Origin: Candidatus Woesearchaeota archaeon
GTDB lineage: Archaea > Nanobdellota > Nanobdellia > Woesearchaeales > GW2011-AR9
Direction: 5' to 3'
Length of the DNA stretch: 47,365 bases
Assembly (NCBI GenBank): GCA_016181265.1
Contig: JACOZP010000004.1
Coordinates: 1 to 47,365 of the forward strand
Positions 26,186 through 40,143 of the stretch are shown here, piece by piece. Position 1 is the first letter of the stretch, and each line of letters begins with the position of its first letter. A program made the position numbers and the translations under genes. The notes under the pieces were generated by a model. It saw nothing but the letters and a program-made list of their open reading frames with translations, did not search any database and was not told the DNA's origin.

Positions 26186-26240
26186 AACAAAACATCCTTC
26201 TCAAGCCCCAGTAGCACAGTGGTAGTGCACCTGACTTGTA

Positions 26241-26291
26241 AAAGTCAGCTCTGGCTGATATGTTTCCAAAGAGAAAAAAGCATATCAAGTC
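26241..26291 (+). other. tRNA-Thr intron 1 (37/38)
   Basis: A 51-nt intron. Anticodon-loop CTTG pairs with CAAG near the intron 3' end. The three bases after it (TCA) are the 3' bulge, cut between C and A, as expected for an archaeal splicing endonuclease site. Internal hairpins TCAGC/GCTGA and ATATG/CATAT are visible; the 5' bulge is larger than three bases. Confidence 0.82.
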
Positions 26292-26307
26292 ATCAGGAGG
26301 TCGGGAG

Positions 26308-26326
26308 AGGTTGAAAAACCCCCGAA
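26308..26326 (+). other. tRNA-Thr intron 2 in the T arm (53/54)
   Basis: A 19-nt intron with a full bulge-helix-bulge. Exon CGGG pairs with intron CCCG (four base pairs), the 5' bulge is AGA cut after AG, and the 3' bulge is AAT cut after AA. The intron-internal helix is GGTT-GAAA-AACC with a GNRA tetraloop. Confidence 0.85.
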
Positions 26327-26345
26327 TTCAAATCTCCCCTGGGGC

Positions 26346-26972
26346 TTATTTCTTCATCATTTCTTGCGCTTTCTTCCTCGCCAACTTATGCGCGAGATGC
26401 AATGGTTCGGGCAGTTTATGGGGATATTTGATGCATTTCTGAACAATATCGAGAACCGAGCCAAACGTAATTAGATTTCCAGGAGAGATGTATAGCGGAT
26501 TGGCATGTTCACGCGTTACGACTTCAAAACCAAGCATTTCACCATTCATCATTATTTTTCCTTGTTCTATACTTCCAAAAGATAGCTTTTCAACGACACC
26601 AATCGTCGGTTTCTGTAAAGCGAGACCAATGTGGGATGCGATGCCGAAGTGACGGGGATGATTAATGCCGTGACCATAGACAAAGAGAATATCTGGCTCT
26701 TCTTCTAATTGGTTGAACGCTTCGATGATCGCCGGCATTTCACGATAGGCAGAGTACCCTAAAACAGGGGATAAAGGATTGGGAAGAAGGAACGTCTTTT
26801 TCTCTTTTATTTGAAATGAGGGGAATTCGCAGACGACAACACAGGCAAGGAGGTCTTTTCCGAAGGAAACACAAGCAGAAGCACCAATCGTTTTTATTCT
26901 AGAAAAAGCATCGCGCAAGATAATTTTTGAAGCAAGCCGTATCTGTTCTTGTTTAAATTCAATGAGATCCAT
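26346..26972 (-). CDS. Endonuclease V homologue lacking catalytic residues
   Basis: A 208-aa protein that aligns along its whole length with endonuclease V, the deaminated-base (inosine) nuclease. Recognisable blocks are EFPSFQI, YSAYREMP, GHGINHPRHFGIASHIGL and KPTIGV. Compared with the Thermotoga maritima enzyme, from memory of that sequence, the metal-ligand Asp43 is Cys34, Asp110 is Tyr99 and Lys139 is Glu128, whereas Glu89 (Glu78) and His116 (His105) remain. Loss of two of three acidic ligands should abolish normal cleavage, so the protein may only bind inosine or have a changed role. The frame is intact and the conserved surface is kept, which speaks against simple decay. Confidence 0.85.
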   Translation of the reverse strand: MDLIEFKQEQIRLASKIILRDAFSRIKTIGASACVSFGKDLLACVVVCEFPSFQIKEKKTFLLPNPLSPVLGYSAYREMPAIIEAFNQLEEEPDILFVYGHGINHPRHFGIASHIGLALQKPTIGVVEKLSFGSIEQGKIMMNGEMLGFEVVTREHANPLYISPGNLITFGSVLDIVQKCIKYPHKLPEPLHLAHKLARKKAQEMMKK

Positions 26973-39338: not shown

Positions 39339-39411
39339 ATTCTCCTAAAAAGAAGAGATTTTTAAAAAAGCTTGTGGAAGAAAGAGAAAGAATGAAGCGC
39401 CACCGCCCGGA

Positions 39412-39466
39412 CATTCGGGCTTGAACCGGGTCGAGTCATTTCATTCGTGACCCGTTTCTCACTTCG
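39412..39466 (-). other. tRNA-Ser intron 2 in the T-loop (59/60)
   Basis: A 55-nt intron. T-loop TTCG pairs with CGAA at the intron end (four base pairs). The 5' bulge is AAC cut after AA and the 3' bulge TGT cut after TG. The intron has an internal GGGTCA/TGAC...ACCC hairpin. The inner helix next to the bulge is weak, so this is a relaxed bulge-helix type. Confidence 0.82.
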
Positions 39467-39496
39467 TTCGAACCGGGAATCCCAGAGGGACAGGTT

Positions 39497-39527
39497 GATG
39501 TGCAGCACTCCTAAATCAGAATGCTGA
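39497..39527 (-). other. tRNA-Ser anticodon-loop insertion (after A37)
   Basis: A 31-nt insertion between A37 and A38. Its first part pairs with the anticodon itself in a 10-11 bp hairpin (CTTGAATCAG with CTGATTTAGG, two G-T pairs). A standard four-base-pair bulge-helix-bulge is not evident, so the exact splice points are uncertain. Confidence 0.65.
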
Positions 39528-39588
39528 TTCAAGACCTGCGCAATACCGGGTTATGCGACGGTGGCACAGGAAAAGGATTCTTCGACGG

Positions 39589-39603
39589 TTTTATAAATAT
39601 TTA
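39589..39603 (-). promoter_or_regulatory. TATA box of tRNA-Ser
   Basis: On the minus strand the box reads TAAATATTTATAAAA, 23 bases before the first tRNA base. Confidence 0.55.
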
Positions 39604-39624: not shown

Positions 39625-40143
39625 TTACTCTTGAAACAGCTCTATCGTCTTCGCCACTTCTTCAGGAATACCAGCGATACAATCATACTTCTTCGCTTCT
39701 TCCGCATTCACCCAAGCATGGTCGGTAAAACTTCCTTCTTCAAGGACAACGTTGCCGGATTTATAGGCAGCGGCAAATTTAACTAATACCACAGGGATAC
39801 CATCCGGACGGATGAACGCAACACTATTGATATATTTCAAGCCCTGAGACAGGTCGATCTGAATCCCTGCTTCTTCTTGTGTCTCGCGGGCGAGCAATTC
39901 TTCAACGGCATCTTCATAATCCAGAACATCACCATTAAAGCGGGTAGGCTTGTCGATGGGTAAATCGTTCCACTCTAGCTTTCCACCGGGAACGGCGTAT
40001 TTCCCAGGATGGACTTTTTCTCGTTCGTGACGTTTGAGAATCAAGCAACGGTGATCAGTAGGACGATAGACGACGACATTGGCAACCAAATAGAAGAGCT
40101 TATCGTTCTTGGCATTGTCCAAACTGATCTGTTTTGCGGGCAT
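39625..40143 (-). CDS. Nudix hydrolase
   Basis: A 172-aa protein with the Nudix fold. The catalytic helix reads EELLARETQEEAGIQI near residue 81, with the REx2EE metal ligands intact. The loop before it (GGKLEWNDLPIDKPTRFNGD) is about 20 residues longer than the GX5E spacing of the standard box, so the Gly-Glu spacing is altered. Upstream strands VANVVVYRPTDHRCLILKRH and PGKYAVPGGKLEW are normal. The substrate, a nucleoside diphosphate derivative or a damaged nucleotide, is not predictable. It follows the CutA-like gene on the same strand by 22 bases. Confidence 0.88.
   Translation of the reverse strand: MPAKQISLDNAKNDKLFYLVANVVVYRPTDHRCLILKRHEREKVHPGKYAVPGGKLEWNDLPIDKPTRFNGDVLDYEDAVEELLARETQEEAGIQIDLSQGLKYINSVAFIRPDGIPVVLVKFAAAYKSGNVVLEEGSFTDHAWVNAEEAKKYDCIAGIPEEVAKTIELFQE

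Follow-up and report, generated by a model that had tools for sequence, protein, structure and literature searches.

Introns in the T loop of Woesearchaeales tRNA genes, with a predicted two-intron tRNA-Ser(UGA) gene as the case in point

The tRNA-Ser(UGA) gene and known T-loop introns

Position 59/60, in the T loop, where introns are seldom encountered, is on the list of noncanonical intron sites in archaeal tRNA genes, where it is found mainly in Crenarchaeota and especially in Thermoproteales (PMC4090602, PMC8450103). For Thermoproteales, large-scale transposition of tRNA introns has been reported (Fujishima 2010, as cited in PMC4090602 and PMC4390854), and in Haloferax a box C/D sRNA lies inside the tRNA-Trp intron (PMC7714728). 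Our search of the open-access literature for tRNA introns in Woesearchaeota or DPANN returned only a paper on group I introns. T-loop introns at 59/60 are known as a kind, while their abundance throughout the order Woesearchaeales seems not to have been described.

We analyzed a contig of 47,365 nucleotides from a Candidatus Woesearchaeota archaeon (the window), in which a tRNA-Ser(UGA) gene is interrupted at 59/60. Its T-loop intron resembles the noncanonical crenarchaeal introns in position, in a central helix formed between exon and intron, in a 3-nt 3' bulge, and in co-occurrence with an intron at 37/38. It differs in its host, a member of the Woesearchaeota (DPANN), in that 59/60 introns are very common here, in that the exon segment T54-R57 itself supplies one strand of the central helix, and in that the inner helix of the window copy is remote.

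The gene occupies positions 39398 to 39565 on the minus strand, with a precursor of 168 nt and a mature tRNA of 82 nt, and reads GCCACCG TC GCAT...TGC G CAGGT CTTGAA[31 nt]A ACCTG TCCCTCTGGGATT CCCGG TTCGAA[55 nt]T CCGGG CGGTGGC G. Exon 1 (nt 1 to 37, with the anticodon TGA and A37; 39528 to 39565) is followed by a 31-nt intron, TCAGCATTCTGATTTAGGAGTGCTGCACATC, at the canonical position 37/38 (39497 to 39527; ARAGORN i(39,31)), which is also present as an intron in the congener locus L016 and which, paired by hand, forms only 2 of 4 central-helix pairs with the exon, a relaxed motif. Exon 2 runs from A38 to A59 and covers the variable arm as well as the T arm's 5' half (39467 to 39496). Then come the 55-nt block, CGAAGTGAGAAACGGGTCACGAATGAAATGACTCGACCCGGTTCAAGCCCGAATG (39412 to 39466), and exon 3, consisting of T60, the 3' T-stem strand CCGGG, the acceptor strand CGGTGGC, and G73 (39398 to 39411). 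The T loop is split as TTCGAA, 55 nt, and T, and the junction is unambiguous because the intron starts with C, unlike T60, and ends with G, unlike A59. On the minus strand the acceptor stem GCCACCG/CGGTGGC with G73 and the anticodon TGA can be read, as can a TATA-box-like TTTATAAA at 39590 to 39597, 25 nt upstream of G1, which may be the promoter of the gene.

Recovery of a tRNA by in silico excision is apparent, with ARAGORN reporting no gene in the window or in the 168-nt precursor, a tRNA-Ser with a 31-nt anticodon-loop intron once the 55-nt block alone is removed, and tRNA-Ser(tga) at [1,82], covering all 82 nt, once both introns are cut. Removal thus restores a canonical tRNA, as expected of archaeal bulge-helix-bulge (BHB) tRNA introns. 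Of 3185 other ways to excise a segment from the gene's 3' part, 61 yield a tRNA call, 57 of them removing 52 to 57 nt around the 59/60 site, and among the tRNA-yielding excisions only the cut at 39412 to 39466 gives the loop TTCGAAT between CCCGG and CCGGG. The preliminary description had placed the intron at these coordinates, which sequence and ARAGORN rescue bear out to the base, together with the restored loop that it had predicted and that we read directly. Serine identity, which it had argued from G73 and a long variable arm, is borne out by the ARAGORN call after both cuts and by reading G73 and the variable arm, TCCCTCTGGGA. Its 82-nt product is right in size, but the 31-nt intron at 37/38, which must also be removed, went unmentioned.

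The Rfam tRNA model scores the gene below its cutoff, as expected because of the two introns, and the window's only Rfam match is a tRNA-Thr. Group I introns, self-splicing ribozymes, are present in archaea including Woesearchaeota, but in rRNA (PMC6125680); as an account of the T-loop intron such a ribozyme is scarcely conceivable, given that 55 nt is too short and that no Rfam intron family matches the window. Two other candidate origins were rejected. A mobile element was considered, but the genome search gave no further copy of the intron and the motif CGAACGAAGTGAG was not enriched in the window; for a viral origin, scanning viral contigs for the intron start gave one chance-like match (L047) with no tRNA around it.

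Pairing of the T loop with the intron end

A strict BHB (hBHBh') has its inner and outer helices immediately next to the bulges. In the window intron, the outer helix h is the T stem, CCCGG (39473 to 39477) pairing with CCGGG (39406 to 39410), and the 4-bp central helix joins exon TTCG (T54-G57; 39469 to 39472) to CGAA within the intron (39414 to 39417). The 3-nt bulges, AA/C (39466 to 39468) and TG/T (39411 to 39413), hold the predicted 5' and 3' splice sites at the slash, all on the minus strand. The central helix and the bulges AAC and TGT are as first claimed. The accompanying statement that the motif is exactly what archaeal endonucleases require holds for the outer helix, the 4-bp central helix, and the 3-nt 3' bulge, which are canonical, and fails at the inner helix, which does not adjoin the 5' bulge: the conserved helix of the GAAACGGGUC/GACCCGGUUC type lies 10 nt away on the 5' side and 5 nt away on the 3' side. 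The window intron is of the relaxed hBH form, which is also included in the archaeal BHB tRNA intron family.

Folding gives a graded picture. In the isolated arm the BHB form has -21.6 kcal/mol versus -22.2 kcal/mol for the minimum free energy (MFE) structure, a difference of 0.6 kcal/mol, and the MFE of the whole precursor favors other pairings and lacks the BHB form. The remote inner helix, these MFE structures, and the 2 of 4 pairs at 37/38 together make the phrase "exactly as archaeal endonucleases require" too strong. In the same genome, the 59/60 intron of the tRNA-Ser with anticodon GGA (L116) has a textbook strict BHB as its MFE. The idea that every 59/60 intron has a strict inner helix was considered and dropped: pairs at the canonical register only modestly exceed shuffled ones, with a better result for a 2-nt 5' bulge, and this weak excess indicates that the strict BHB is not universal among these introns.

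To survey the lineage, we derived the signature GGTTCRAA-N(6-66)-YGAADGTCY from the first few introns, leaving R57 and its proposed intron partner free (as R and Y), with the reversed pattern as control. The signature has 157 matches, spread over 46 of the 49 family genomes, and the control 10. In 84 additional genomes from the order the counts are 202 and 32, and in 44 genomes from other orders of the class they are 23 and 12. In the same 49 family genomes the uninterrupted loop, GGTTCRAATCY, has 568 matches and its control 86, so that an intron of signature form sits in roughly a quarter of such loops; the share is approximate, the two patterns being unequally strict. This abundance of 59/60 introns in the order is apparently newly described.

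A dead tRNA gene, in which a small repeat or REP-like insertion stays in the transcript while another tRNA-Ser serves the UCN codons, might explain why the block holds CGAACGAAGTGAG and a partial T-arm copy, CCCGGTTCAAG, as an insertion with target duplication could. We regard a dead gene as improbable, since both T-stem strands, the loop, and the acceptor are intact, a genome search at E<=1e-3 gave no further copy of the block, CGAACGAAGTGAG lacks enrichment in the window, and about a quarter of the family's T loops are interrupted at this very position with covarying splice signals. A chance resemblance to an intron is excluded by the excess over the reversed control within the family and by the intronless loop of a congener.

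The covariation is found at R57. Against its intron partner, R57 forms G-C in 44, A-T in 88, G-T in 9, and A-C in 3 of 144 introns within the family (p about 2e-24), and G-C in 16, A-T in 51, G-T in 5, and A-C in 4 of 76 outside it (p 6.5e-9), both p values being indicative only because the sequences are related. The G-T class is still a wobble pair, and the introns are otherwise diverse, at 13 to 69 nt. That R57 covaries with its partner argues that T54-R57 truly pairs with the intron, and this is the strongest evidence for pairing between the T loop and the end of the intron. When the introns are folded with a generic T stem, 61% form the central helix at a probability above 0.5, and none do so once shuffled; the contrast is inflated, since the end of the intron is fixed by the pattern.

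We consider it highly probable that this tRNA-Ser(UGA) gene is functional, with two introns in its transcript, one of them at a BHB-like site in the T loop, EndA and RtcB being the proposed splicing enzymes. Removal of the 59/60 intron by way of a bulge-helix-bulge, as originally proposed, is supported by an intronless congener, the R57 covariation, the ARAGORN rescue, and the presence of EndA and RtcB genes. The intron's CGAA would pair with exon T54-G57, with the T stem outside, to give the BHB-like site; a single alpha-type EndA would cut after A59 and after the last intron G; and RtcB would join A59 to T60 and probably circularize the intron. The 31-nt intron at 37/38 would be removed likewise to yield the 82-nt tRNA. 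Cleavage, ligation, and their order are put forward here as predictions from the anatomy.

Introns in related tRNA genes and free-standing loci

We compared the gene with 59 related genomes. The best match is in a genome of the same genus, G002 (L016/L126), with 92% identity to the precursor over nt 1 to 99; the match ends exactly at the 5' splice site and continues with T CCGGG. There the tRNA-Ser is uninterrupted, CCCGGTTCGAATCCGGG, with the TTCGAAT loop intact, the 37/38 intron kept, and the T-loop intron absent, so that comparison establishes the insertion site and supplies the intronless tRNA-Ser named beforehand as a check. Another congener, G001, has a different 34-nt insert at 59/60 of its tRNA-Ser(UGA), TGAGAATCG...CTGAATG (L109). 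Within one genus, therefore, site 59/60 is empty, holds one intron, or holds another. In L109 (positions 1 to 200, G001:C84), three introns are apparent, in the D loop after G19, at 37/38, and at 59/60. A NUDIX-like gene (39625 to 40143, minus strand, in the window) adjoins the tRNA-Ser(UGA) in this genome and also in G001; the orientation of the tRNA gene relative to it is opposite between the two, which implies that the tRNA gene was flipped or moved locally.

Homologues of the window intron lie at 59/60 in L017, L018 (two), and L019. They occur in two neighboring tRNA-Ser genes of G032, with anticodons TGA and CGA, and in the tRNA-Val(UAC) of G014 and of G001; G032 and G014 belong to the same GTDB family as the window genome. 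An inner helix of 9 to 10 pairs, drawn by hand, is common to four of the five introns (GAAACGGGUC/GACCCGGUUC in the window, GAACUGGGUC/GACCCGGUUC in G014). Near-identical introns in phylogenetically distinct tRNAs, Ser(UGA), Ser(CGA), and Val(UAC), are the mark of transposing introns, and their presence in different isotypes and adjacent genes points to spread, probably by either transposition or gene conversion. This is like the Thermoproteales case as those accounts present it, with near-identical introns in Ser and Val isotypes and in neighboring Ser genes of one genome; here such introns are seen between and within Woesearchaeal genomes, and the copies examined are always at 59/60. The window intron may be a recent arrival that spread from one tRNA gene to another with a similar T arm.

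All five homologues carry a degenerate T-arm copy close to the 3' end, a feature that would suit a nested exit in two steps, in which an inner block leaves first and a small remaining intron follows, using the intron's own CCCGGTTCRA copy beside CCCGAATG. Introns that form only once another is removed are described for tRNAscan-SE 2.0 (PMC8450103), and in G014 such an exit would leave CCCGGTTCGAA-ACCGAAAG-TCCGGG, a possible 8-nt intron. The window copy, however, reads TTCAAG, which would not pair correctly with CGAA, the inner block yielded no BHB, and the one-step BHB form is within 0.6 kcal/mol of the MFE. Two-step exit is unlikely, and we favor removal of the T-loop intron in a single step.

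Two further kinds of locus were noted beside these genes. In L113 and L119 (G001:C90 and G014:C38), tRNA-Val(UAC) has apparent D-arm, anticodon-loop, and T-loop introns together. In L034, L041, L111, and L126, partial extra tRNA-Ser ends (GCCAGCGTCGCATA... and TATGCGATGCTGGC) adjoin tRNA-Ser genes and look like remnants or small hairpin derivatives of tRNA.

The T arm is also interrupted in the window's tRNA-Thr(UGU) (26205 to 26346, plus strand), which has a 51-nt anticodon-loop intron and a 19-nt intron, AGGTTGAAAAACCCCCGAA, with a central helix CGGG/CCCG and an inner hairpin GGTT/AACC. ARAGORN calls this tRNA only once the T-arm intron is cut. The preliminary description had cited it as a parallel; the intron is real, but it sits at 53/54 (26308 to 26326), not 59/60.

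A different RNA occupies the T loop of tRNA-Gly(GCC) in the window genome (G000 C1:48874-48953; L062 1501-1580), as a 69-nt intron at 59/60 homologous to RNAs in 30 of the 49 family genomes. It is a T-loop intron in several genomes and elsewhere free-standing, in a hairpin with the same bulge-helix-bulge layout (loci L062, L191 [G000:C15:30399-30477], L071, L072, L136-L143, L145, L148, L154, L178-L183, L189, and L190). The core, GGTTTAGCTTAGAAAATCCAGCTGGTTA-hairpin-GTAAAACCTGTCT, is found in one or two copies in almost every sampled genome of the family. In a set of 16 sequences, pairing is kept in 96.7% of pair cells. Two-sided changes are seen at 12 of 21 pairs, compared with 6.0 for shuffled data, none of 500 shuffles reaching 12, and the signal is destroyed by sliding the partners. 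Of 193 genomes from the phylum, a covariance model detects the RNA in 24, including 21 of this family; in G048, of another family, copies lie in a tRNA-Gly and in an apparent tRNA-Lys T loop. No Rfam family matches it, and nothing like it was found for the window's tRNA-Ser intron. We infer that the small RNA is released by EndA and probably circular; by its example, a T-loop intron in this lineage can be an RNA with an independent existence. As with the Haloferax tRNA-Trp intron, the excised intron is plausibly a functional RNA, but it is a different RNA, in the T loop rather than the anticodon loop, and also free-standing with its own BHB.

Splicing endonuclease and implications

Efficient cutting of relaxed motifs has been reported only for (alpha-beta)2 and epsilon2 endonucleases, with specificity loops accompanying diverse intron positions (PMC6379350, PMC12397907), and alpha4 enzymes are reported to be of narrow specificity (PMC6379350). 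A heteromeric or insertion-bearing enzyme had been expected in this genome, an expectation that the search did not bear out. The EndA homologue (G000:C14, 231 aa; E 6.2e-29) contains PF02778 and PF01974 and scores 117 bits with TIGR00324 against a cutoff of 59.6; RtcB is encoded by one gene (6.2e-173). The closest structures are M. jannaschii EndA (1A79, 9.7e-36) and the N. equitans catalytic subunit (3IEY, 2.5e-35), and the N- and C-terminal EndA domains on a single polypeptide suggest an alpha4-type enzyme. In the window genome this 231-aa gene is the only one found, with no second structural subunit or fused three-unit protein of ~390 aa identified, and profile searches at E<=10 found no second homologue, each of seven genomes having a single one. 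Among the seven is G045, one contig listed at 100% completeness, with eight signature matches and one EndA homologue. The enzyme lacks a Crenarchaea- or ARMAN-specific loop, showing no insertion relative to M. jannaschii EndA at the point where the S. tokodaii enzyme carries one, and this loopless form is uniform across 31 family sequences.

There are three possibilities: the lineage is an exception to the endonuclease rule, a diverged partner subunit went undetected, or many of the sites are strict enough for an alpha4 enzyme. A broader proposal, which we offer tentatively and hold at somewhat less than even chances, is that in Woesearchaeales the T loop at 59/60 may be a general docking site for BHB-bounded RNAs moving between tRNAs and free-standing loci. 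One of these would be the conserved small RNA, freed by EndA from its own hairpin or from the tRNA-Gly T loop, and all would be served by the single alpha-type, loopless EndA, contrary to the published rule. The lineage is a possible exception to the rule that links varied or relaxed intron sites to endonucleases with two subunits or a specificity loop.

The intron models of tRNAscan-SE were trained on Crenarchaeota, Euryarchaeota, and Thaumarchaeota (PMC8450103). T-loop introns hide many tRNA genes from standard finders in a large order of uncultured archaea, with ARAGORN missing both tRNAs of the window, and "missing tRNAs" reported in such genomes may therefore be artifacts. The very recent gains and losses of introns within one genus provide material for understanding how tRNA introns move.
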